35,524 nt of DNA from a virus, in the IMG/VR virus record IMGVR_UViG_3300020233_000030, positions 1 to 35,524 of that record. One strand, given 5' to 3'. Positions 682 to 14,583 of the stretch are shown here, piece by piece (the stretch's first letter is position 1; each line of letters begins with the position of its first letter). Made by a program: the position numbers and the translations under genes. Below the pieces are notes generated by a model. That model ran no database searches and was not told where the DNA came from. It saw only the letters and a list, made by a program, of their open reading frames with translations.

Positions 682-1938
682 GTGACTGACAACGTGCGCG
701 CCCTCACACCGACACCCGACATGCTCCATATCGAGATGGGTGTCTCAGCGCCCCAACGCATCGCCAGTACACTGTATGACGATTTCCTACCCGAACTGCG
801 AGGCCAACAAGCACTACGCACGTGGCGGGAAATGTCAACAAACGACGCCACCGTCGCCGCCTACCTGTTCGCCATCTCGATGCTTGTCCGTGAAGTGGAT
901 TGGAGTGTCCAACCTGGCGACGAATCCACCCAAGCGAAAACAGCGGCCGACTTCCTCACCGAACAGGTAGACGCGTTGGCGCATCCGCTGTCGGACACGG
1001 TCGGTGAAGCATTCACGTCGTTGGAGTACGGGTTTGCGTTTCACGAAATCGTGTACAAGTTGGATGCAGGTCGGATTGGTTGGGAACGGTTCGCATACCG
1101 GCCACAAGACACACTCATCCGGTGGCAGTTGGATGAACAGCTCAGGCCGACAGCGTTCGTTCAAGGCACACCACGCGGCGGCACCATCGCCATCCCCACC
1201 GACACGAAAGGTATTCTGTTTCGTATGGACACCACCACCCCATCCGGCACACCCATCCTCCGCGGTGCATACCGGTCGTGGATGTTGAAGAAGAGGGCTG
1301 AAGAGTATTTGATGATCGGCATGTCACGCATGTTGAACGGCCTACCAATGGCACGCATCCCCGCCCACATTCTCGCGGCTGGGCCCGGCAACCCGATCTA
1401 TGACGCATTCAAACGCACCGTCACCCGTGTCAAGCGTGATGAGCAGATGGGTATCTTGTTGCCGTCCGACACTGATCCGAACGGTGTTCCGATGTACACG
1501 TTCGAACTGCTATCACCGACCGGTAACCCACAGTTCGACCAAATCGTGTCCGTCATCAGAATGTTTGCCTCCGATATGACTGCAACTGTCCTGGCACAGT
1601 TCATGAATTTGGGCCGCGACGCTGTCGGATCTAGAGCACTCGCTGAGCCGCAGCAGGAACTGTTCCAAACCGCCCTGGGTGCACAGATGGACATGCTCGA
1701 AAACGTCTTCAACCGTCAAGCCGTCCGACCACTGTTCGATTTGAACCCGTCACTGTCGGGGCCGAGGCCGAAGATTGTGCACAGCGATGTGAAAGACGTC
1801 GACATGACCGGCCTAGCGGAGCTCATGTTGAAGACGTCTCAAGCCGGTGCCGTCTGGTTCACCGGTGAAGAAGACGATCCGGCGTTGGCACAGTTGAAAG
1901 ACATGGCAGGCTTCGACGCCGACACCAAGATCGAATAA
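682..1938 (+). CDS. Portal protein (DUF935 / Mu gp29-like)
   Basis: The portal forms the dodecameric ring at one head vertex through which DNA is packaged and released. The 418-residue length suits the DUF935 (Mu gp29-like) portal group. The N-terminal part (about 40-80) holds a helix-rich segment with TWREMSTNDATVAAYL, and SLEYGFAFHEIVYK (about 113-126) is typical of this group. A long helical region with RMFASDMTATVLAQF (about 290-305) fits the stem and clip. It lies between TerL and a MuF-type gene, the normal order. The GTG start lacks a Shine-Dalgarno sequence and may be leaderless. The stop TAA overlaps the MuF ATG by one base. Confidence 0.85.
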   Translation: MTDNVRALTPTPDMLHIEMGVSAPQRIASTLYDDFLPELRGQQALRTWREMSTNDATVAAYLFAISMLVREVDWSVQPGDESTQAKTAADFLTEQVDALAHPLSDTVGEAFTSLEYGFAFHEIVYKLDAGRIGWERFAYRPQDTLIRWQLDEQLRPTAFVQGTPRGGTIAIPTDTKGILFRMDTTTPSGTPILRGAYRSWMLKKRAEEYLMIGMSRMLNGLPMARIPAHILAAGPGNPIYDAFKRTVTRVKRDEQMGILLPSDTDPNGVPMYTFELLSPTGNPQFDQIVSVIRMFASDMTATVLAQFMNLGRDAVGSRALAEPQQELFQTALGAQMDMLENVFNRQAVRPLFDLNPSLSGPRPKIVHSDVKDVDMTGLAELMLKTSQAGAVWFTGEEDDPALAQLKDMAGFDADTKIE

Positions 1939-4838
1939 TGCTCGTCGTCAAGACGGCCGACCCGGACTGGCAGCTCATACACGCGGCCGCGGACAAGCTG
2001 GCACCGAAACTTCGCACCGCATTCCGGGAAGCGTTCGACACACTCGCGGCACTCCTACCCCTCAACGACCTGACCGACCTGCTCGAAGCTGAAGCGTTCA
2101 ATGAACTGTCCGCACTCATAGCCGACCTCAGGTTGCCCGATATGGCACCGTTGGTGAACCTGCTCGCTAGCGCGCAAGTCACGACTGCGACAGCTATCGG
2201 CATCCGTTTCGACGTGCCGTCGCCAGCCATCTACACACTCAACAATCCGGACATTCTCCGATGGACCACCAGACGAGTCTCCGATCTGATAGTCGGCGTC
2301 ACCCAAGAAACAAAGAACGCTGTCACCAGCATTGTGCGTCAAGGCTTCATTGACGGTATCCCGGTACGTGTCCAAGCCAGACAGATCAGGCGCGTGGTTG
2401 GGTTGACGAACCGTGACGCCGGTGCTGTGCAACGGTTCCTCACCGGACAACTCGAAGCCGGCATCAAACAAGCCAGAGCCGAGACGATGGCGCAACGAAT
2501 GACAGACCGTCTCAAACTGCGACGTGCCGACGTGATAGCACGCACCGAATCTATACGTGCATCCAACCAGGGACAGCTACAAGCCTGGCGTGACCTGATG
2601 GACGCAGGCGGACTCGACCCGACCGTCACACGTCGTGTCTGGGTCGCGACAATCGACGACCGCACATGTTTCCCTGCCGGTACGCGTATATCAACGCCGG
2701 ACGGTGACAGGCCAATAGAAGCACTGGAACCGGGCGACATAGTTGACACGCCGCAAGGTCCGATGCCTATAGCAGCGACCGTTGGAACCTGGTGCAAGGA
2801 TGAATGGGTTGCAATTGTCGACTCCACCGGTCAGTTGACGATCTCGACAGCGGATCACGAATGGTGGTCAGATGGTTGGGTCGAGGCGCAGACACTCAAG
2901 ATCGGTGACTGTCTGCAATCTGTCGAGAACAAGCCGATCTATATCGTCGGTGTTGCCAAGTTCAGTCTCGGAGATGCGGACAACATGCCAGCCGTCTGCA
3001 CGCAACTCGGCATCCCTCGCAGCGTCCTTGACAGGATCATGCCAGTAGTCGCCATCGACCTCAAGGACGATACGGTTACCAACCACGAAATCGAATGTTC
3101 GTGCCCCATATTGATGTTCCTGGATGAACCTGATGCCTTGCCGCTGCAAGGATTCTCTGACTGTAGTTTCGATGCCTGTCTCACCGCGGAAACATCTGTA
3201 GCACCGCGCCGAACAGAAACGTCGATGTCCAGCAGCGGACGGCTTGACCCTGAACTTGTCACCACAATAGCGACAATCGACAAAGACGGGCGGTCGGCGG
3301 CATATCTCAGAGCAATGCCAGATGTCACGTTTCGACGCCCAGAACGATGTGCCGCACGACCTGCAATTCCGATACAGGGTGTGAGCATGTCGGCATGCCA
3401 ACGAACATACACGGTATCGGACATTCATCGACTGAGGAACGGTGAATGTCTTGTTGCATACAGGGCAGATCTTCTCAATCAACACATCCGATTTGTCGGC
3501 GAGGTAACACTGTCGGCTACAGAACCGCCGGTATCGCAAATCGTTTCCTTTGCCAGGACGGAAAGCAACACCGCAATGTTCACAGGTGAAGCTGTCGGGA
3601 TAGATCCGGGTTGCGAGATGGTAACAAACCGTCGTGCAGAAATGGCACTTGCCGCGGGGACGAACCTTAGCGACATATTCGACGCTGCAATAGTCGCAGA
3701 CATAGCGGAGGCGTTTACCGCGTTCTACACCAGTCATATCAACGGTGGCCATCCAGTGTATGATATCACAGTCCAAGGACCGGCATGTTTCTACGCAAAT
3801 GGCGTCCTTGTCCACAACTGCGGCATCTGTGCGGCACTTGATGGGCAGACTGTCGGATTCCTGGAACCGTTCCGCTCCACCGAACAGTACGTCGATTTCA
3901 CCGATTTAGGTACAGGGTTTGTGGCAGAATCGACGAAGCCGTTGCCGGAACCTATCGTCGAACAGACACCCCCCGCACACCCGCTATGTTTACCTGGGGA
4001 TGCTCTCATATCGACCGCTGGCCGCGTCACGGGTGCCACGAAACGGATATTTGACGGGGATATGGTCACTGTCCGCATCGGCAACGGTAACAGCTTCCGC
4101 GCTACCCCGAACCATCCGATACTCACGGACAGCGGATGGGTAGCCTGCGGCGATCTTGTACCAGGCTGCAATGTAGTCAGCGGCGGCAATGTCGATAGGC
4201 GACCATCGGTGAATGTGGATGACAGCTACATGCCATCCACTATTGAAGAAGTAGCGAACACGTTCCTGCATACGGTCAGCGTGTCTGCCGGTCCAGTGCC
4301 AGTTACCGCCAAAGATTTCCACGGCGATGGGGAAGGCTCCGATGTCGCAATTGTAGGGACCGACCTGTTGTTGCGCGACGACCGGTATACCCATGTCACT
4401 GAGCCAACCAGCCATGGTCCGTTCGTTGACAGTGGTATGTGCGGCAGCGTTCGTCTCGACAGTGGCCGCAATTTTCATGCGGTGCTCAACCGTCTGGATG
4501 CTGCCGCGGGCAGCGTCATGGGCGGCGGTGACCTGGTTGGTACGCTGTGCCGTGTCCATGCGCGACCACTTCAACGTTTCAGCTTCGGACTGGCTACGGA
4601 CAGCAACGGCACGTTCGGTGAGTCTGAGTCTGATAGCGCTGCGGGAAACGCCGAGACTGTTCGCGAGTCCGTTCTCAGACTCACCGGCAAGATATCGACT
4701 GACAAGGTCGTCGCAGTCGATCGTGACCCGTTTCATGGCTACGTCTACAATCTTGAGACAACGACAGGATACTACCAGACGAACGGTGTCGTTGTACACA
4801 ACTGTCGCTGTTCCACTGCACTCGTCTTCGACGAATAA
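1938..4838 (+). CDS. MuF-type minor head protein interrupted by two inteins
   Basis: The 966-residue precursor should splice to about 310 residues, the usual MuF length. The exteins are 1938-2666 (243 aa), 3819-3986 (56 aa) and 4803-4838 (11 aa). The N-extein is helical and carries the MuF segment RRADVIARTESIRASNQGQL. The spliced product would read DDRT-CGICAALDGQ ... PPAHPL-CRCSTALVF, the conserved metal-binding signature of MuF domains. The protein helps assemble the head and portal vertex and may be co-injected. Both inteins sit exactly before a conserved Cys, sites where loss by imprecise deletion would be lethal. The ATG overlaps the portal stop. Each intein also encodes an endonuclease on the opposite strand. 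Confidence 0.9.
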   Translation: MLVVKTADPDWQLIHAAADKLAPKLRTAFREAFDTLAALLPLNDLTDLLEAEAFNELSALIADLRLPDMAPLVNLLASAQVTTATAIGIRFDVPSPAIYTLNNPDILRWTTRRVSDLIVGVTQETKNAVTSIVRQGFIDGIPVRVQARQIRRVVGLTNRDAGAVQRFLTGQLEAGIKQARAETMAQRMTDRLKLRRADVIARTESIRASNQGQLQAWRDLMDAGGLDPTVTRRVWVATIDDRTCFPAGTRISTPDGDRPIEALEPGDIVDTPQGPMPIAATVGTWCKDEWVAIVDSTGQLTISTADHEWWSDGWVEAQTLKIGDCLQSVENKPIYIVGVAKFSLGDADNMPAVCTQLGIPRSVLDRIMPVVAIDLKDDTVTNHEIECSCPILMFLDEPDALPLQGFSDCSFDACLTAETSVAPRRTETSMSSSGRLDPELVTTIATIDKDGRSAAYLRAMPDVTFRRPERCAARPAIPIQGVSMSACQRTYTVSDIHRLRNGECLVAYRADLLNQHIRFVGEVTLSATEPPVSQIVSFARTESNTAMFTGEAVGIDPGCEMVTNRRAEMALAAGTNLSDIFDAAIVADIAEAFTAFYTSHINGGHPVYDITVQGPACFYANGVLVHNCGICAALDGQTVGFLEPFRSTEQYVDFTDLGTGFVAESTKPLPEPIVEQTPPAHPLCLPGDALISTAGRVTGATKRIFDGDMVTVRIGNGNSFRATPNHPILTDSGWVACGDLVPGCNVVSGGNVDRRPSVNVDDSYMPSTIEEVANTFLHTVSVSAGPVPVTAKDFHGDGEGSDVAIVGTDLLLRDDRYTHVTEPTSHGPFVDSGMCGSVRLDSGRNFHAVLNRLDAAAGSVMGGGDLVGTLCRVHARPLQRFSFGLATDSNGTFGESESDSAAGNAETVRESVLRLTGKISTDKVVAVDRDPFHGYVYNLETTTGYYQTNGVVVHNCRCSTALVFDE
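2667..3818 (+). other. Intein 1 in the MuF protein (384 aa)
   Basis: The intein begins with Cys in block A (CFPAGTRISTPDG). Block B carries T-A-D-H at intein residues 61-64. It ends with block F (HPVYDITVQG) and block G (NGVLVHN), followed by extein Cys at 3819-3821. All residues for standard protein splicing are present: Cys1, the block B Thr and His, the penultimate His, the terminal Asn and Cys+1. Between blocks B and F lie about 270 residues with no LAGLIDADG or HNH motif in this frame. That linker is the reverse-strand image of the endonuclease at 2868-3752. Confidence 0.93.
2868..3752 (-). CDS. Vsr-like (EDxHD) homing endonuclease, five zinc knuckles, antisense in intein 1
   Basis: This protein of 294 residues (from the ATG at 3752) is encoded entirely inside intein 1 on the opposite strand. 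A longer form could start at the GTG at 3815, opposite the intein's penultimate His codon, and a shorter one at the ATG at 3737. Its N-terminal two-thirds holds five tandem knuckles of the form CxxC-x(13-19)-CxxxC or similar, for example CPVCNKTF...CSLAC and CRYCGDKF...CSARC. The C-terminal third has a Vsr/DUF559-like core: Glu in TGIETTV, Asp in RTFDFVVG, and LEVDGDYWH with Glu and His, then a GWHVVRI strand. That is the E-D-x-H pattern of the I-Bth0305I family. It should cut intein-free MuF alleles to promote homing. No clear Shine-Dalgarno sequence or promoter is seen. Confidence 0.85.
   Translation of the reverse strand: MATVDMTGVERGKRLRYVCDYCSVEYVAKVRPRGKCHFCTTVCYHLATRIYPDSFTCEHCGVAFRPGKGNDLRYRRFCSRQCYLADKSDVLIEKICPVCNKTFTVPQSMNVRYRVCSLACRHAHTLYRNCRSCGTSFWASKRDIWHCSEICRRPPVFVDCRYCGDKFRVKPSAAGHRRFCSARCYRCFRGETGIETTVRESLQRQGIRFIQEHQYGARTFDFVVGNRIVLEVDGDYWHDPVKDAARDAELRADGWHVVRISETELGNTDDIDRLVLDRLQTVTDLECLRLDPTI
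3987..4802 (+). other. Intein 2 in the MuF protein (272 aa)
   Basis: The intein starts with Cys (CLPGDALISTAGRVTGATKR) and has a canonical block B, RATPNHPILTDSGWVACGDL. Block F is HGYVYNLETTTG and block G is NGVVVHN, followed by extein Cys at 4803-4805. The catalytic residues expected for splicing are all present. The roughly 180 residues between blocks B and F show no endonuclease motif in this frame. The opposite strand encodes a nuclease that overlaps almost the whole intein. The insertion is immediately before the CRC motif near the MuF C-terminus, leaving a C-extein of only 11 residues. Confidence 0.93.
3990..4736 (-). CDS. Vsr-like (EDxHD) homing endonuclease with HTH, antisense in intein 2
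   Basis: This 248-residue protein (from the ATG at 4736) lies wholly within intein 2 on the opposite strand. An alternative GTG at 4799 would add 21 residues. An N-terminal helix-turn-helix (residues about 8-40, NGLANSLGVSRSAIRLRL) is followed by a basic, helical linker. The nuclease core comes next: NERTMAGWL, YNCDIG and AVEIFGGNWH supply Glu, Asp, Glu and His, and GWHVAVIHI follows. This core aligns with that of the nuclease in intein 1. The last 60 or so residues lie opposite intein blocks A and B and may be only tolerated read-through. The stop codon pairs with codon 2 of the intein. No strong ribosome binding site is visible. Confidence 0.82.
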   Translation of the reverse strand: MKRVTIDCDDLVSRYLAGESENGLANSLGVSRSAIRLRLTERAVAVRSQSEAETLKWSRMDTAQRTNQVTAAHDAARGSIQTVEHRMKIAATVETNAAAHTTVNERTMAGWLSDMGIPVVAQQQVGPYNCDIGAFPIAVEIFGGNWHWTGRHADRMQERVRYFFNSGWHVAVIHIHRWSPIDIAAADYIAAWYKIAAGYPSAVREYRMVRGSAEAVTVADADSDHIPVKYPFRGTRDAASGRYESIPR

Positions 4839-4860: not shown

Positions 4861-4946
4861 TGGAGGAAGGTGGAGGAATCGAACCCCTACCCGTCAAGGT
4901 ACCCGAGGGTTCGAGCCTCGTTGCCAACCATTTAGCGGCACCTTCC
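4861..4946 (-). tRNA. tRNA-Ser (anticodon CGA)
   Basis: Read on the minus strand, the 5' end GGAAGGT pairs with ACCTTCC, followed by T and an encoded CCA (complement of 4861-4863). The anticodon stem CGAGG/CCTCG encloses CTCGAAC, giving anticodon CGA. A class II variable arm (TACC...GGTA) supports serine. The T-loop is TTCGATT. Position 8 is either missing or shared with the acceptor stem. It reads UCG, a codon this phage uses very often by eye. It lies two bases downstream of the Met tRNA on the same strand. Confidence 0.8.
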
Positions 4947-4948
4947 GT

Positions 4949-5017
4949 TGCGGGGGCCGGAATCGAACCGACATTTGCGGCTTATGAGACCGCCGGGCAA
5001 CCAATGCCCCACCCCGC
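4949..5017 (-). tRNA. tRNA with CAT anticodon (Met, possibly Ile2)
   Basis: On the minus strand GCGGGG pairs with CCCCGC. The D-arm is GGGC/GCCC with an ATTGGTT loop. The anticodon stem GCGGT/GCCGC encloses CTCATAA (anticodon CAT), and the T-arm is GTCGG-TTCGATT-CCGGC. CCA is not encoded. The G1-C72 pair argues against an initiator tRNA. Elongator Met or lysidine-modified Ile cannot be told apart here. At about 69 bases it is slightly short, with a six-pair acceptor stem. Confidence 0.78.
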
Positions 5018-5023
5018 TTAGAG

Positions 5024-5123: not shown

Positions 5124-5309
5124 TTGGCTAAGGAACGAACACCAGCCGACGACTACCGCGATGCCCACCGCGCCTACATAGAGGCTGAACAACGTCACGT
5201 CTACCTGAATGAAAAAGCGCAGACAGCGAGCAATGAAGCGCAACTATTCCACCGGCGGTTAATAGACGCACAACAACAGTTACATGACTGGATAATCGGT
5301 GGTGATTGA
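5124..5309 (+). CDS. Small helical hypothetical protein
   Basis: This 61-residue protein starts with TTG, chosen because taggagg lies about seven bases upstream. The sequence is strongly helical and charged, with many Gln, Glu and Ala residues, and looks like a short coiled coil. It overlaps the start of the PseF-PseG fusion gene by 11 bases, so the two are probably translationally coupled. No family is recognised. Confidence 0.65.
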   Translation: MAKERTPADDYRDAHRAYIEAEQRHVYLNEKAQTASNEAQLFHRRLIDAQQQLHDWIIGGD

Positions 5310-6720
5310 CACACTCGCCGTCATACCAGCACGTGGCGGCAGCACCGAACTCAAACGCAAGAACCTGTTGCCGATAGACGGCACACCCATGTTCCTCCAC
5401 TCCGCACACGCAGCTAGGGACGCAGGCTGCCAAGTCGTCATATCCACCGACGATGCCGAGATTCGTTCCACCGCGATCGTGGCAGGATTCACGGTGCATG
5501 ACCGCGGCCCAGAGTTGGCTGATGTTGTCGTCGATGAGGTTGTCAAGGCTGCAACGGAGGGTTGGGACGGGCCGATACTGTTGGTGCAACCCACCGTGCA
5601 ACCAATCACCGCCGAGATCCTCACCGACTTCATACGAAACACCTCTGAGGTGGGTTGTCTCACTGCTGACAACACGCATCAGCTATGGAGCAACGGAGGC
5701 TGGATAACACCTCGCGTCAACAGACAAGACCGCCCTCTGAGCTCGCTGGTAGCACAGGAGCTCGGTATCAGATATTGGGCAACCGTTGCCGATATTGGCA
5801 AAGCTCCAACGCCGGTGCCTATGCCGTTCTCAGTCAACGATCTGGTCGACATCGACACTGCCAGCGACTACCGCTCGATCACGATTCCGAGATGTGTCGC
5901 GTTGTGGCCGATCGCTGACCAGACACACGGTATGGGTCATCTACGTCGCTGTCTCGCCATCGCCGAACAGCTACAACACCACCACATCGAGTTTGTGATA
6001 GACGACGTCGACGACGACATGTTGGAGATACTCGTCGAACGCGGCTGGCCATTCGAAACGTTTGCCGGTATCACAGACGACCATACCCCAGACTTGTGGA
6101 TTCTGGACAGGCTCGATAACACGGACATGCCGCAGCTCGACGGCAAGGTTGTGACATTCGAAGACGAATCGGACTATCCGGACGATGTGAAAATTGATGC
6201 CCTATATGAGGATGGTGTCGACTGGTGTGTCCTGAGGCCAGAATTCACAGCCGGCAGCTACCACGTCACCGACCAGACACATTCGTTGAAACTGTTAGTC
6301 ATGTTTGGCGGCACCGACCCCAGCCGGTTAGGTGCACGAATCTCGGAACTGTTTCCACACCACCAGCTTGAATGGATACAAGCTGGCGATGACAAGCCGG
6401 TAGCCGAACTGATGCACCAAGCCGACATTCTGATCACGTCGGCGGGTAGGACAGTGTTCGAAGCCGCCGCGGTCGGCATCCCTACCATCGTCCTGGCACA
6501 GAACCTGCGGGAGACGACGCATACGCATCTCGGGTATCGGCACGGCAACATCTATCTCGGGCTCGGCAAGCTTGTCACAGACCGTCAGATCCAAACCACC
6601 GTCGCGACACTCGAAGCCGACACCGGGTTGCGGCATGATTTGTCTGTACTCGGCAGACCAGACGGGTTAGGCTTACAGCGTATAGTTCATCGTATCGAGG
6701 CGCTACTGGGAGGTCTCTGA
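5299..6720 (+). CDS. PseF-PseG fusion: CMP-nonulosonate synthetase plus UDP-sugar hydrolase
   Basis: Residues about 1-195 are a cytidylyltransferase of the PseF/NeuA type, with IPARGGSTELKRKNL at the CTP site, and activate a nine-carbon sugar acid with CMP. Residues about 200-473 resemble PseG, which removes UDP from the 2,4-diacetamido sugar precursor. GMGHLRRCLAIAEQL carries the His expected to be catalytic (His17 in Campylobacter PseG), and LLVMFGGTDPSRLG and SAGRTVFEAAAVGIPTIVL form the nucleotide-binding C-lobe. In most bacteria these are separate genes. The adjacent PseI-like gene at 6914 provides the step between them. The start is GTG at 5299 or 5302. Legionaminic pathways use a different (NeuC-like) hydrolase, so a pseudaminic-type product is favoured. 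Confidence 0.82.
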   Translation: MVIDTLAVIPARGGSTELKRKNLLPIDGTPMFLHSAHAARDAGCQVVISTDDAEIRSTAIVAGFTVHDRGPELADVVVDEVVKAATEGWDGPILLVQPTVQPITAEILTDFIRNTSEVGCLTADNTHQLWSNGGWITPRVNRQDRPLSSLVAQELGIRYWATVADIGKAPTPVPMPFSVNDLVDIDTASDYRSITIPRCVALWPIADQTHGMGHLRRCLAIAEQLQHHHIEFVIDDVDDDMLEILVERGWPFETFAGITDDHTPDLWILDRLDNTDMPQLDGKVVTFEDESDYPDDVKIDALYEDGVDWCVLRPEFTAGSYHVTDQTHSLKLLVMFGGTDPSRLGARISELFPHHQLEWIQAGDDKPVAELMHQADILITSAGRTVFEAAAVGIPTIVLAQNLRETTHTHLGYRHGNIYLGLGKLVTDRQIQTTVATLEADTGLRHDLSVLGRPDGLGLQRIVHRIEALLGGL

Positions 6721-6917
6721 TGAATCGGACAGAACAACTGTATGCCGTACTCGAATCACGCTACGAGGCACACATCGAACATGTCGACGACACGTTCGTC
6801 GCGACTGTTTGGTTGGTGACGAAGACGGACCGTAGCAGGTTGGCGACGTTCATCGACGTCGATGAACGGTCTGCTAGGGACGCAGCGTACATGTTTCTGA
6901 TGGAGCGGCCACGGTGA
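6720..6917 (+). CDS. Small hypothetical protein in the sugar cassette
   Basis: This 65-residue protein is joined to both neighbours by four-base-type overlaps: ATG at 6720 overlaps the stop of the fusion gene, and its stop overlaps the GTG of the synthase gene. The middle looks like alternating beta strands (FVATVWLVTKTD). It has no membrane segment and no recognised domain. The context suggests an accessory role in the nonulosonate pathway, but the sequence gives no direct support for that. Confidence 0.6.
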   Translation: MNRTEQLYAVLESRYEAHIEHVDDTFVATVWLVTKTDRSRLATFIDVDERSARDAAYMFLMERPR

Positions 6918-7921
6918 GGCGTCTGGTTGCTGAGATAGGTTCAGCCAACGGCGACCTCCAATACGCACTCGACTGTGTGGATGCGTTCGCAGACGCTGGC
7001 GTGTCGATGATCAAGGGCCAGTTGTATACGGCTGACACGTTGACGTCGAAGACTGCGAAACCGTATGGGAAAGGCATCGTCGAGCCTGCCACCCAGCATG
7101 AAGCATTCTCCAAGACGCTAGACATCGCTGATTGGGCTGTGGTGCAAGACCGATGTGATCATCGTGGCATCAAGTTCTTCGCATCAGTGTTCAATGTGCA
7201 AGCTGTCGACACCGGTGTCGAGCAGCGTTGGTCTGCGTTCAAAATTGCATCGGGTGACATCACATACCGTATGCTGATTGAACAGGTAGCTGAGGCGTGT
7301 GAAGCGTCTGGTGCGTCGATGATTCTGTCCACAGGCGGTTCTACCCTGTCCGAGATTGAACGGGCCTACAACTGGATTCGTGATATCACTAAGAATGTCT
7401 ATGTGATACTGCTCGTCTGCACCCTGTCATACCCAACCAAGATCGAGGACGCACACGTCGACCGCATCACCACATTCCAGAACCTCGGTTACAATGTTGG
7501 CTATTCGGACCACACACGTGGCATCGCGGCAGCCGACTACGCATACCGGCTCGGTGCCACGATGGTTGAGAAACATGTCACGTTGACACCTGGCGCTGGT
7601 GGGGATCACGACTTTGCCATCACCCCTGCCGATGTGAAACAGTTGATGGCTGGTGAAGTGACTGGAGAATGGGACTGTGTAGCTGCTGGCGATTCGGAGA
7701 TCCGGATACACACCTGCGAGCTCGACGCTCGTATCGGTGCACGTAGGTCGCTGCACGCTGCTGTCGACATTGTTGAAGGTGACACAATCAGGCCGTGGCA
7801 TATCAGGACTGTGCGGCCAGGCGGCGGTATTGAACCGTACCAACTCGAACAGGTTGATGGCAGTCGGACAACATGCCATGTCGCGGCGGGTACGATGCTT
7901 GACTGGTCGATGCTCACCTGA
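6914..7921 (+). CDS. Nonulosonic acid synthase (PseI/NeuB-like)
   Basis: This 335-residue enzyme condenses a six-carbon amino sugar with phosphoenolpyruvate to make a sialic-acid-like sugar. The TIM-barrel motifs of NeuB/PseI are clear: GVSMIKGQLY (substrate Lys), STGGSTLSEIERA, VCTLSYPTKIEDAHVD, VGYSDHTRGIAAADYA, LGATMVEKHVTL and GGDHDFAITP. A C-terminal antifreeze-like SAF domain (about 275-335, RRSLHAAVDIVEGDTI) is also present, so the enzyme is full length. The GTG at 6914 overlaps the preceding stop. With the PseF-PseG fusion it covers the last three steps to the CMP-sugar; the earlier steps must come from the host. Confidence 0.88.
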   Translation: MRRLVAEIGSANGDLQYALDCVDAFADAGVSMIKGQLYTADTLTSKTAKPYGKGIVEPATQHEAFSKTLDIADWAVVQDRCDHRGIKFFASVFNVQAVDTGVEQRWSAFKIASGDITYRMLIEQVAEACEASGASMILSTGGSTLSEIERAYNWIRDITKNVYVILLVCTLSYPTKIEDAHVDRITTFQNLGYNVGYSDHTRGIAAADYAYRLGATMVEKHVTLTPGAGGDHDFAITPADVKQLMAGEVTGEWDCVAAGDSEIRIHTCELDARIGARRSLHAAVDIVEGDTIRPWHIRTVRPGGGIEPYQLEQVDGSRTTCHVAAGTMLDWSMLT

Positions 7922-7978: not shown

Positions 7979-8398
7979 ATGGATACGGTCAGATTCACCT
8001 GCCACATAGAAAAGTCGGAACCAGCCTTGAGGCGGTTTTGGGGACGTGGCTATGTCGTGTCGAAAGACGGCACCGCTATTGTTGACCATTCCGGTGATGT
8101 GATTGATACACCCGAAGCGATGACTGCACTCGAATCGGCATTCTACGACTTCGTACGTGAAATCCGGTCAGGCGATTTGGAACACACCGACTTTGACGCT
8201 GCCACGATGATTGAGGGTGTCATTGTGACGCCGGAGAAGCGTGCCGCTGGTCTGTTCCCTGACGAGATGCCTGATGGGATACTTGTCGGTTTCCAAGCCA
8301 ACGATTCTGATGCTGGTGATGCTTTGTGGGAAGGCGTGTCGTCTGGCAGGTTGACGGCGTTGTCGATTGTTGGTGAAGGTGAGAAGGTGAAACTGTGA
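7979..8398 (+). CDS. XkdF-like prohead protease
   Basis: The 139-residue protein resembles the XkdF family (Peptidase_S78_2), small proteases that process the scaffold or capsid during head maturation. The family pattern is visible: GRGYVVSKDG, then HSGDVIDTPEAMTALESAFYDFV, a His in LEHTDFDA, VEGVIVTPEKRA-like strands, VGFQAND and the closing ALSIVGEG with a candidate catalytic Ser. It sits directly before a scaffold-like gene, decoration protein and major capsid protein. Its stop overlaps the GTG of the next gene. Proteolytic activity is inferred from family and position. Confidence 0.75.
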   Translation: MDTVRFTCHIEKSEPALRRFWGRGYVVSKDGTAIVDHSGDVIDTPEAMTALESAFYDFVREIRSGDLEHTDFDAATMIEGVIVTPEKRAAGLFPDEMPDGILVGFQANDSDAGDALWEGVSSGRLTALSIVGEGEKVKL

Positions 8399-9285
8399 CA
8401 GCTTTGAACCGTCTCTTCGTCCGTAAACTCACGTCGATTGGTGTTGTCGAGGAGGGTGACGATCCTGAAGCTAAAATTATGCTGTTCAAACGTCGCACCG
8501 AGAAACGTGTCGTTCCTGCGTCGGAGCGTGACATGTTGGCCGGTCGCGGCATGGCTCTGCCGGACGGTTCGTTCCCTATCAAAACTGTCACTGACTTGAA
8601 GAACGCTGTGAAACTGTTTTTCAGGGCGAAAGACAAGACGGCGGCGAAACGTCACATCAAACGGCAAGCTGCACGCTTGGAGCGTGAAGACCTGCTACCA
8701 GATTCTTGGACGAAAAGCGCGGACAGTGCCCCAATCAAAGGAAACGCTATGGACTTCGAAACGTTGGGTCTCGACGACGAAACCCGCGAAGTCATCGAGA
8801 CAGCATTCGATGTGCTCCGTGCCAAAATCACGGAGTTGGAGGATGTTGAACCGGTCGACGTGTTGAAAGACGCACCGGACGAGGTGAAGAAACAGTTCGC
8901 AGACCAGCAGGCACAGATCGAGAAGCAGGCTGTCGAGTTGGCTGCCGAGAAGGACGCCCGCCTGACAGCAGAGTTCACGAAGACAGCCGAAACGTACACC
9001 GGTGTGTTGGGTGACGCCGCGGAGGCTGGTCCGAAGTTGAAGACGTTGGCAACCACTGACGCCTATGACTGGCTGGTTGAGAAGCTGAACGCTGTCGCCG
9101 CGATCGTCGCCACGTCGGATCTGTTCAAAGAGTTGGGTGTCTCAGATGAGGCAGATCCGAAGGAACAGATCACAGTGTTGGCGAAGGAGAAGCAGAAAGA
9201 CAATCCGGACTTGACGATCGAACAGGCCAAAGTGTTGGTTCGGACGGAACGTCCCGATTTGAAGACTGCTGAAAGGAGCATCTGA
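8395..9285 (+). CDS. Putative scaffolding protein with DUF6582-like N-terminus
   Basis: This 296-residue protein has a basic N-terminal part (about 1-105) with GMALPDGSFPIKTVTDLKNA and a Lys/Arg-rich helix. The rest (about 118-296) is acidic, rich in Glu, Lys and Ala and predicted largely helical, as in phage scaffolds. Position supports this: it follows the protease and precedes decoration and capsid genes, with which it forms an overlapping operon (GTGA at 8395, TGATG at 9285). An internal ATG at about 8750 after aaaggaaacgct could give a shorter scaffold-only product; this was not tested. Confidence 0.65.
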   Translation: MTALNRLFVRKLTSIGVVEEGDDPEAKIMLFKRRTEKRVVPASERDMLAGRGMALPDGSFPIKTVTDLKNAVKLFFRAKDKTAAKRHIKRQAARLEREDLLPDSWTKSADSAPIKGNAMDFETLGLDDETREVIETAFDVLRAKITELEDVEPVDVLKDAPDEVKKQFADQQAQIEKQAVELAAEKDARLTAEFTKTAETYTGVLGDAAEAGPKLKTLATTDAYDWLVEKLNAVAAIVATSDLFKELGVSDEADPKEQITVLAKEKQKDNPDLTIEQAKVLVRTERPDLKTAERSI

Positions 9286-9677
9286 TGGCGTACACAGAGA
9301 ACGCACAGGTCGTTTCCCAGGTCGCAGCTACCACGTTCGCAGCGGCAGACGTGTACAAGTTTGTGGACATGGTCGGCGGCAACGTCATCCTGCCCGCGAC
9401 GACAGGTAACGTCCTGCCGTACGGTGTCCTGTACTCCGCCACCGCAACCACGTCGACGGGTGCCGAAGCTGTCGACGTCGCTATCGGCGGCATCGTGAAA
9501 GTCCGGCTGGCTGCGTCGACGTTGTCGGCTGGCGACTACATCGGGTCGTCCACCGCAGGGTTCGGTATCGCACCAACCACCGACGCCTACGTCGCTGCGC
9601 AGATCGTGTCAGGTTCGTCCGGCAACATTCGTGTCGTGTCGGCGAAGCTGCTCACCGGTCCGCTCGGAGGCATCTAA
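9285..9677 (+). CDS. Head decoration protein (DUF2190-like)
   Basis: The 130-residue protein is small, rich in Ala, Thr, Val and Gly, and predicted all beta. The pattern AGDYIGSSTAGFGIAPTT followed by VSGSSGNIRVV resembles DUF2190-type capsid cement proteins that trimerise on the shell. It is directly upstream of the major capsid gene, the usual place. A Shine-Dalgarno sequence (gaaaggag) precedes the ATG, which overlaps the scaffold stop. Confidence 0.7.
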   Translation: MAYTENAQVVSQVAATTFAAADVYKFVDMVGGNVILPATTGNVLPYGVLYSATATTSTGAEAVDVAIGGIVKVRLAASTLSAGDYIGSSTAGFGIAPTTDAYVAAQIVSGSSGNIRVVSAKLLTGPLGGI

Positions 9678-9726: not shown

Positions 9727-10680
9727 ATGCCTGAACCAGGTTTGGGTGACGTCCACGTAGACACCGCCCTCACAGACGTATCAATCGGCTACTTCCAGTC
9801 GCTTGGCGACACAAGGCGCATCGCAACATCGGTGTTCCCGATCGTCCCATCGAGCAAGCAGTCGAACAAGTACCACGTGTACACCAAATCGGAGCTGCTC
9901 CGTACGGTGGCGCAGAAGCGTGCACCAAACAGCGAAGCGGCAGTACGGACGTATAAGCTGTCTCAGGGAAACTTTTTCTGCAACGTCGTGTCGGTAGCAG
10001 TCGACGTGTCCGAACAGGTGCGTGCAAACGCCGACCCTGTCCTAGACCCGGAAGACGACGCCGCGCGTTTGACGGTGGACGATGTGACGTTGAAGATGGA
10101 GAAAGACTTCGCCACGAACGTCCTATCAACAGGCGTGTGGGGAACCGAGCTCGCATCGACCGCGTCGTTCTCTTCGACTGGTCTGTTTCCGAAGATCGCG
10201 ACGGCGCACAAGACGGTGTTGCAAAACACTGGTTTGCGTGCCAATACGTTGCTGTTGACTGCGGACGGCTGGTACGACGGTTTGATGAACAACGCCGACA
10301 TCATCGCACGTATGCCAACCGATCAGCCACAGTTCGTGACTGAGGAGTTCATTGCGAAGACGTTCATGGTCGACAAAGTGTTCATCATGGACTCTGTCGA
10401 AACGACCAGTCCGGAGGGTTCGACTGCCGACACGTACGCGTTCGCAAAGACGAACAAGGCTGCGTTGCTGCACGTCGCTAGGAACCCCGGGCCACGTACA
10501 CCGTCCGCGGGGTATACGTTCACATGGACCGGTCTCGTCGGTGCAGGACGTGAAGGCATCCGTACCAAGCGGATGGACATGCCATGGAAAGACGCCTTGC
10601 CACGTGTCGAGACTGACGCCGCGTACGATTTCAAAGTCACCGGCACCGACCTCGGCTACCTGTTCACGGCACCTGTCTGA
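9727..10680 (+). CDS. Major capsid protein (HK97 fold inferred)
   Basis: This 317-residue protein is the best candidate for the shell subunit. Near the N-terminus SIGYFQSLGDTRRIATSVFPIV and YHVYTKSELLR resemble the E-loop and spine region of capsid proteins in this family. Further on, LLLTADGWYDGLMNN and MVDKVFIMDSVETTS are typical A-domain strands, and the C-terminus holds an arginine-rich stretch before VETDAAYDFKVTGTDLGYLF. It follows protease, scaffold and decoration genes. The Shine-Dalgarno sequence gggagg is clear. No large propeptide is evident at the N-terminus, so processing may act on the separate scaffold. Confidence 0.85.
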   Translation: MPEPGLGDVHVDTALTDVSIGYFQSLGDTRRIATSVFPIVPSSKQSNKYHVYTKSELLRTVAQKRAPNSEAAVRTYKLSQGNFFCNVVSVAVDVSEQVRANADPVLDPEDDAARLTVDDVTLKMEKDFATNVLSTGVWGTELASTASFSSTGLFPKIATAHKTVLQNTGLRANTLLLTADGWYDGLMNNADIIARMPTDQPQFVTEEFIAKTFMVDKVFIMDSVETTSPEGSTADTYAFAKTNKAALLHVARNPGPRTPSAGYTFTWTGLVGAGREGIRTKRMDMPWKDALPRVETDAAYDFKVTGTDLGYLFTAPV

Positions 10681-10845: not shown

Positions 10846-11634
10846 ATGAGTGAGGACATCACCGTGACGAGTGAGGACATCACTCCCCCGTTCATCAAAA
10901 CAGCATCGAGGGTGTGTATTGTCGGGTTCGCCGACGGGCATAGGGCTGATGCACCGTTCGACGAACCGGACATGGAGTTTTGGGGTCTGAACAGGCTGCA
11001 TACTGTCCTGCCGGACAAGACGTGGCATCGCTGGTTCGAACTCCACGACCTCGAAAAGTTTTACGGCCAGGACCAGGAGCATCAGACGTTCCTGAAAGCC
11101 GCACAGTTCCCGATCTATGTCCGGCCGCAAGACATGCAGATCGCCGAGCAGTGGGGTATCGACGCTGTCCCATATCCACGGGACCAGATCGTCGCCACGT
11201 TCCAACCCTACTTCACAAACACTGTGTCTTGGTTGTTGGCGATGGCGATCATGATGGAGTTCGAAGAGATCCACCTGTATGGTGTCGACATGGCGATGGA
11301 CAACGTGTTGCAGGCCGAATACGCCGAGCAGCGCCCGTCATGTGAGTGGCTGATCGGCCTGGCGCAAGGCCGCGGCATCAAAGTTGTGTTGCCGCCAGGC
11401 TCCGACTTGATGAAAGCGTCACATCTGTACGGTTTTGATGATGACGAATACCGGGCGAAAATGTCTGCCCGTGTCGTCGAGTTGGCGAACCGGAAGGAAC
11501 AGATCCGTGGCGAAATGCATCAACATAAGGCCCGTGCCGACATGCTCCAAGCCCGCATCTCAGAATTGGACGGGTCGATGCAGGAATGCCACTACCAGTT
11601 ACGTAACCTGATCACACAATCGGTGGGTGAATGA
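10846..11634 (+). CDS. Predicted glycosyltransferase-like protein (GT42/DUF115-like)
   Basis: The 262-residue protein has a Rossmann-like start (SRVCIVGFADGHRADAPF) and motifs MEFWGLNRLHTVLP and HRWFELHD. The segment MEFEEIHLYGVDMAMD resembles the GYKEIYLSGIDFY motif of Campylobacter CstII sialyltransferases (GT42) and of DUF115 proteins. Residues about 200-255 form a charged coiled coil. Since the phage also makes a CMP-nonulosonic acid, transfer of that sugar is a reasonable hypothesis, but the catalytic residues cannot be confirmed by eye. Similar uncharacterised proteins are common near capsid genes. A weak aaggga precedes the ATG. Confidence 0.5.
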   Translation: MSEDITVTSEDITPPFIKTASRVCIVGFADGHRADAPFDEPDMEFWGLNRLHTVLPDKTWHRWFELHDLEKFYGQDQEHQTFLKAAQFPIYVRPQDMQIAEQWGIDAVPYPRDQIVATFQPYFTNTVSWLLAMAIMMEFEEIHLYGVDMAMDNVLQAEYAEQRPSCEWLIGLAQGRGIKVVLPPGSDLMKASHLYGFDDDEYRAKMSARVVELANRKEQIRGEMHQHKARADMLQARISELDGSMQECHYQLRNLITQSVGE

Positions 11635-14130: not shown

Positions 14131-14583
14131 ATGATGACGCGCACATTACAGCTCGGCGGCAAACGTGGCGCTTCGTTGTCTGTCTTGGTCGACGAATCCG
14201 ACTACGACATCGTGGCTCAGTATTCGTGGTGTCTCGGATCGCATGGATATGCGTGCGGCCGTGTTGACGGTGAAGTGGTACTGATGCATAGGCTCATTCT
14301 TGGACTATCTGATCCAGACATCCAGACCGATCACATTAACCGTGACAGGCTTGACAACCGTCGAAGCAATCTGAGGCTTGCCACGCAACAGACCAACAAG
14401 CACAACGTACAAGGACGTGGAGCATCACAGTACCGTGGCGTTGGGTGGCACAAGGCAAGCAAGAAGTGGCGTGCACGAGCAGGTACACACTATTTGGGGC
14501 TGTTCAGTGACGAATCAGAAGCTGGCCGGGTTGTTGCCACATGGCGTCAAGAACATTGGTCACATGCAATCGAGGTGATTTAG
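14131..14583 (+). CDS. HNH homing endonuclease with AP2 domain
   Basis: The 150-residue protein has an HNH_3 nuclease core: VVLMHRLILGL, then QTDHINRDRLDNRRSNLRL and ATQQTNKHN, with the His and Asn residues expected for metal-dependent cutting. Residues about 100-145 form an AP2-like DNA-binding domain (YRGVGWHKASKKWRARAG, YLGLFSDESEAGRV). Such free-standing genes are mobile and cut alleles lacking them. It sits between two tail tube paralogues, six bases after one and one base before the other. Ribosome binding is weak (gtgggta). Confidence 0.88.
   Translation: MMTRTLQLGGKRGASLSVLVDESDYDIVAQYSWCLGSHGYACGRVDGEVVLMHRLILGLSDPDIQTDHINRDRLDNRRSNLRLATQQTNKHNVQGRGASQYRGVGWHKASKKWRARAGTHYLGLFSDESEAGRVVATWRQEHWSHAIEVI

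Follow-up and report, generated by a model that had tools for sequence, protein, structure and literature searches.

In Bacillus subtilis, SpsG, SpsE and SpsF make legionaminic acid from UDP-linked precursors (PMC7439481), and PseG, PseI and PseF of Campylobacter jejuni carry out the same types of reaction. Bacteria and archaea (for example Bacillus, Clostridium, Solirubrobacterales and Acidimicrobiia) also contain operons in which a fused CTP_transf_3-PseG gene is followed by a NeuB gene. Maf enzymes place nonulosonates directly on Ser/Thr of a filament protein (PMC11339370), and in mycobacteriophages such as Maravista phage-encoded glycosyltransferases are proposed to act on the capsid protein (PMC11256854). 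Here we describe a related locus in IMG/VR virus record IMGVR_UViG_3300020233_000030, of which positions 1 to 35,524 (the window) were analysed. A cassette with the same fused gene and a NeuB gene, in the same order as in the cellular operons, lies in the head operon of a siphovirus-like phage, and a gene for a predicted CMP-nonulosonate transferase lies by the capsid gene (Table 1). We assign a probability of roughly 0.5 to the reading that the three enzyme activities of the cassette would form, together with the transferase beside the capsid gene, one late-expressed pathway with a virion protein as its target. The known part of this arrangement is the bacterial nonulosonate operon; what is added is the predicted phage-encoded transferase in the head operon. 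Compared with capsid glycosylation of the Maravista type, this phage also encodes sugar synthesis and CMP activation, and its putative transferase has a sialyltransferase fold.

The first cassette gene encodes a fusion of an N-terminal domain that belongs to Pfam CTP_transf_3 (48.9 bits vs a cut-off of 22.6) and a C-terminal domain with a match to the NCBIfam PseG family (E 8.6e-19). An AlphaFold model of the fusion (pLDDT 83.9) has the fold of CMP-NeuAc synthetase over residues 2-196 (1eyr, Z 22.5) and the GT-B fold of C. jejuni PseG over residues 198-428 (3hbn, Z 18.3). MurG-type glycosyltransferases match the second half as well (Z 23), which is expected because the GT-B fold is common to both. 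A profile built from the hydrolase domains of six phages had C. jejuni PseG as its best PDB sequence match (3hbm, E 4.2e-10). H17 and N255, which are reportedly important for PseG, correspond to H214 and N402 of the fusion. Both are invariant in the six phages, as is the metal-binding DxD motif of the CMP-synthetase half (D184/D186).

The NeuB-family protein exceeds the cut-offs for both of its domains, NeuB PF03102 (167.5 bits, cut-off 22.1) and SAF PF08666 (34.9 bits, cut-off 21). Thirteen residues that we take, from the structure of NmNeuB, to be its catalytic residues are identical in the window: E25, K53, Q55, K129, S132, S154, Y186, S213, H215, E234, H236, D247 and R314. They comprise substrate, metal and phosphoenolpyruvate residues, and both metal histidines, which are also ligands in PseI, are kept. 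NmNeuB N184 is replaced by Leu throughout the clade to which the window protein belongs, and the counterpart of E134 is Asp. Between the fusion and NeuB is a 65-amino-acid open reading frame (ORF) that overlaps the former by 1 base and the latter by 4 bases, which suggests that the cassette ORFs are translationally coupled. This ORF gave no family match, and no homologue was found at related loci.

In the pathway that we propose, the host would supply a UDP-hexosamine-type sugar, from which the PseG-like half of the fusion would strip UDP. Condensation of the released sugar with phosphoenolpyruvate by NeuB would produce a nonulosonic acid of nine carbons, and the NeuA/PseF-like half would activate this acid with CTP to yield the CMP-sugar. 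The GT42/Maf-fold protein would then attach the nonulosonic acid to a protein of the virion, for which the major capsid protein or a decoration protein from the same operon is the most likely candidate. A capsid or decoration acceptor is suggested by the position of the transferase gene, which is 3' of the capsid gene in those capsid-related phages that were seen, and by the action of Maf, one of the closest folds, on Ser/Thr residues of a self-assembling filament protein. An earlier note on this DNA, made from the letters alone, had described a fusion and a full NeuB/SAF synthase among head genes that would cover UDP removal, condensation and CMP activation, with PseB, PseC and PseH missing. 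The type of chemistry was right: families, folds and catalytic residues fit these three steps, the active-site residues are kept, the cassette is flanked by genes for the portal, MuF-type protein, S78-like protease and major capsid protein, and the three genes are absent from the complete circular genome. The note overlooked the 65-amino-acid ORF, the conservation of the cassette in other phages and the candidate transferase, which would turn an odd cassette into a coherent pathway.

The model of the putative glycosyltransferase (GT) has a pLDDT of 90.8. Its best folds are CstI (Z 11.3, 171 residues aligned), CstII (11.0), a Pasteurella sialyltransferase (10.9) and Maf (10.7), and a Foldseek search with the model returned four matches at E < 0.001, all of them CstII. 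The eight best matches of the GT sequence profile against the PDB were all sialyltransferases, each weak (E 0.018-0.28). Searched alone, the gene gave no significant family match; PF06002 (GT42) did not match the window protein and matched 2 of 49 family members weakly (best E 0.021, below the gathering score). None of the other large ORFs tested matched a glycosyltransferase family. Compared with CstI, CstII and Maf, the phage protein has an extra long C-terminal helix and no apparent base histidine, and it is far shorter than Maf. H67, E158, Y159 and R163 are conserved across the GT family and are candidate residues in place of the GT42 base histidine. Between the window and contig L002 the GT protein is 47% identical, more than the cassette enzymes of the same pair.

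The GT gene is linked to nonulosonate genes by co-occurrence. In a set of contigs found only via the capsid protein and extending over at least 7 kb on its upstream side and at least 2.5 kb on its downstream side, nonulosonate or cytidylyltransferase genes were present in 6/6 contigs with the GT gene and in 0/12 without it, a distribution with a chance of 1 in 18,564 under independence of the contigs, an assumption that does not hold here. Among the six GT-positive contigs, three (L226, L240 and L283) encode capsid proteins that are more distant, and their genes are arranged differently; in L226 and L283 the cytidylyltransferase is the only such gene seen within the stretch examined. GT homologues are also found near NeuB or cytidylyltransferase genes in viral contigs L018, L022, L034, L036, L045, L053, L111 and L123. 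In these contigs and in L019 the GT42-like family adjoins NeuB and/or cytidylyltransferase genes in other arrangements, with two GT copies in L034 and L036, which suggests that a wider set of viral nonulosonate systems may exist. The link is not universal, since a distant GT homologue in Microcystis phage PP496355 lies 5' of the terminase gene, without NeuB in the stretch read.

Relatives of the cassette were found by alignment-based scans of IMG/VR. Alignments were needed, as single-protein scans (P0001 or P0003) of viral and genome contigs gave no relatives. The cassette occupies the same slot (MuF, cassette, protease, scaffold, major capsid protein) in other IMG/VR contigs, being found between the MuF and protease genes in L002/L237, L039/L217 and L063/L219. 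The whole series of MuF, fusion, NeuB, protease, scaffold, capsid and GT genes is present in L002, L039 and L063/L219, while L042 ends after MuF, fusion and NeuB, and L040 after MuF and fusion. The phage cassette proteins are ~34-47% identical to those of the window, and the catalytic positions are invariant. INPHARED contained no match to the fusion and only three weak matches to NeuB, and PHROGs contained no match to either; the cassette is thus unseen in the annotated phage sets used. We found nothing on point in the open-access literature on phage-encoded nonulosonate synthesis or virion nonulosonates, although prior reports may exist elsewhere.

Of 80 loci that encode a related hydrolase in cellular genomes, 61 have the same fusion, and a NeuB gene is close by in nearly all of these 61. 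As judged from these sequences, the fusion is an old bacterial architecture and the cassette an operon of bacterial origin. The earlier proposal that the fusion is a phage invention for channelling was rejected, as bacteria and archaea commonly carry the fusion gene paired with NeuB. The NeuB tree was built by a quick method and has long branches, and only well-supported (starred) groupings were used. In this tree the phage copies form a single clade (SH-aLRT 98), whose sister group consists of sequences from Acidimicrobiia and Solirubrobacterales (98); the PseI, NmNeuB and SpsE (1vli) references lie apart from them. Because the phage NeuB sequences form one clade that is sister to Actinomycetota, the tree points to a single old capture from an actinobacterial lineage, presumably followed by long retention. 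Actinomycetota are indicated only as the donor side of the NeuB gene. Unlike the cellular operons, the phage copies form a divergent clade of their own with NeuB proteins that lack the N-H pair discussed below, and the phage cassette lies in a head operon with a capsid-linked GT42-fold gene. In the Solirubrobacterales relatives (L140 and L165) the cassette is near KdsB/KdsA/KpsF-like genes, as judged by reading translations only.

The safe statement about the product is that it would be a CMP-activated nonulosonic acid made from a host-supplied UDP-sugar. The earlier note had gone further and proposed a pseudaminic-acid-like sugar, with the phage diverting a host intermediate of PseB, PseC and PseH. 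This sugar was too specific: its pseudaminic identity is not established, and we consider the synthesis of CMP-pseudaminic acid from such an intermediate unlikely. Ranking of the whole fusion against curated families places PseG first and PseF second, and the best PDB matches are C. jejuni PseG for the hydrolase domain and pseudaminic acid synthase 8h2c for NeuB. However, the phage proteins remain below all of the curated equivalog cut-offs, with 68.2 vs 153.55 bits for PseG (TIGR03590) and 46.7 vs 205.7 bits for PseF (TIGR03584) in the fusion, and 186 vs 340.25 bits for PseI (TIGR03586) and 194.8 vs 399.65 bits for N-acetylneuraminate synthase (TIGR03569) in NeuB, which also falls outside the PseI clade. 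Twenty cellular genomes with the fused operon, some of which are metagenome-assembled and may be incomplete, include only two that pass the curated cut-off for PseC and two that pass it for PseB. The nearest Actinomycetota relatives (L136, L140 and L165) have at best generic PseB-like matches, none over the cut-off. A neighbour scan of nine bacterial and archaeal loci for precursor steps revealed dTDP-glucose dehydratase/GalE-type and polysaccharide genes, with no DegT-type aminotransferase among the strong matches listed. Furthermore, the homologous enzymes SpsE, SpsF and SpsG take the same three late steps towards legionaminic acid (PMC7439481), although SpsF and SpsG are encoded by separate genes.

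Several observations weigh against a virion-directed pathway. HPPK and thiamine pyrophosphokinase have the same fold as the GT protein (Z ~10), so the fold alone is no proof of a transferase and genomic context carries much of the argument. The position of CstII H188, the GT42 base, would correspond to A160, judging by an ungapped hand alignment from the GxD strand. The N-H pair of the NeuB GxNHxG motif, present in PDB references and Actinomycetota relatives, is replaced in 5/5 phage NeuB proteins, and K16 of the cytidylyltransferase P-loop GGSK (NmCSS) is Thr in the window and Lys in 3/6 phage fusions. The acceptor is placed by gene position only, and the co-occurring contigs are not phylogenetically independent. 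The kinase folds, the lack of an apparent base histidine and the lack of a Pfam match would all agree with a GT42-like protein that is no glycosyltransferase but pterin/thiamin pyrophosphokinase-like or structural, in a phage whose cassette only feeds CMP-nonulosonate to host enzymes. We consider this quite improbable, given the complete co-occurrence in the capsid-related set, the proximity of the same genes in unrelated phages, and the ranking of sialyltransferases above the kinases, slightly by fold and also in the PDB profile search. An unlikely alternative is modification of the host surface: the phage GT, or transferases of the host, would use CMP-nonulosonate to alter the cell surface and thereby keep out competing phages or hide receptors. 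Such a role is a frequent proposal for phage glycosyltransferases (PMC10202952), and in bacteria the relatives of the cassette are found in the midst of polysaccharide genes, but a location inside the late head operon, with the transferase 3' of the capsid gene in related phages, fits virion assembly better than early exclusion. Finally, the clear bacterial origin, the lost N-H motif and the replaced K16 might be taken as signs of a captured operon that is decaying or neutral. This explanation was already disfavoured and appears very improbable to us, as the frames are open, the catalytic residues are invariant and the position is conserved despite the low protein identity.

We favor the virion as the site of action, and such phages would probably coat their own particles with a sialic-acid-like sugar. 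Slightly more tentatively, the locus would define a tailed phage lineage with a nearly complete virion nonulosonylation system that places the sugar on its own capsid and takes only the UDP-sugar from its host. If so, nonulosonic acids would join the chemistry of phage particles, by a pathway that is virus-encoded from UDP-sugar to attachment. A sialyltransferase-fold family of tens of uncultured viral contigs would acquire a specific function, possibly as a minimal protein nonulosonyltransferase with a ~190-residue domain, and there would be a new reason for phage particles to be acidic, or to be hidden from defences and predators.

The virus record has a length of ~35.5 kb and is complete and circular, since a direct repeat of 40 bp is present at both ends and the gene for the large terminase runs in frame into this repeat, with the C-terminal part of the terminase at the start of the record. 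The gene order is terminase, portal, MuF, two minus-strand tRNAs, cassette, protease, scaffold, small head protein, major capsid protein and GT-like gene, followed 3' by connectors, tail genes including the tape measure, and endolysin. A family search with the small protein 5' of the capsid gene gave no match; homologues were found in L002, L039, L056 and L063.

Table 1. Coordinates of the cassette, the candidate transferase and neighboring head genes in the window.
Feature	Position	Strand	Length (amino acids)	Remarks
Portal	682-1938
MuF-type minor head protein	1938-4838	+		Two inteins; conserved upstream neighbor of cassette
Bifunctional fusion	5299-6720	+	473	GTG start; residues 1-196 NeuA/PseF-like CMP-nonulosonate synthetase, 198-473 PseG-like UDP-sugar hydrolase (both predicted)
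Small cassette ORF	6720-6917	+	65	Overlaps fusion stop (TGATG) and NeuB start (GTGA)
NeuB-family nonulosonate synthase	6914-7921	+	335	C-terminal SAF domain
S78-like head maturation protease	7979-8398	+		PF14550, E 4.5e-5; conserved downstream neighbor of cassette
Probable scaffold	8395-9285	+		Same position in cassette phages; matches only families of unknown function
Small protein 5' of capsid gene	9285-9677	+		Head-decoration-type position; conserved in cassette phages; candidate acceptor
Major capsid protein	9727-10680	+		phrog_1005, E 3.3e-63; candidate acceptor
Predicted CMP-nonulosonate transferase	10846-11634	+	262	GT42/Maf-type sialyltransferase fold and 60-residue C-terminal helix; directly 3' of major capsid gene

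The two tRNAs, tRNA-Ser(CGA) and tRNA-Met(CAT), lie at 4861-5018 (-) between the MuF gene and the cassette and were not seen in L002. Directly 5' of the fusion is a 61-amino-acid ORF (5124-5309, +) that overlaps the fusion start by a few bases. An HNH endonuclease gene (14131-14583, +; phrog_99, E 3.9e-32) is located between the gene for the major tail protein and the tail gene that follows it. The inteins of the MuF protein are found at about residues 243-628 and 698-956. Antisense to intein 2 is an ORF of 269 amino acids (3990-4799, -). Part of its product is HTH-like, and the product also contains the motif IAVEIFGGNWHW...RVRYFFNSGWHV, which resembles that of Vsr/MTES_1575 endonucleases (Pfam E 0.0024). 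In L103 and L108 the antisense protein scores 188 and 173 bits, compared with 124 and 138 bits for the sense-strand intein. Because the antisense protein is the better conserved of the two, the homing endonuclease of MuF intein 2 may be encoded antisense within the intein.

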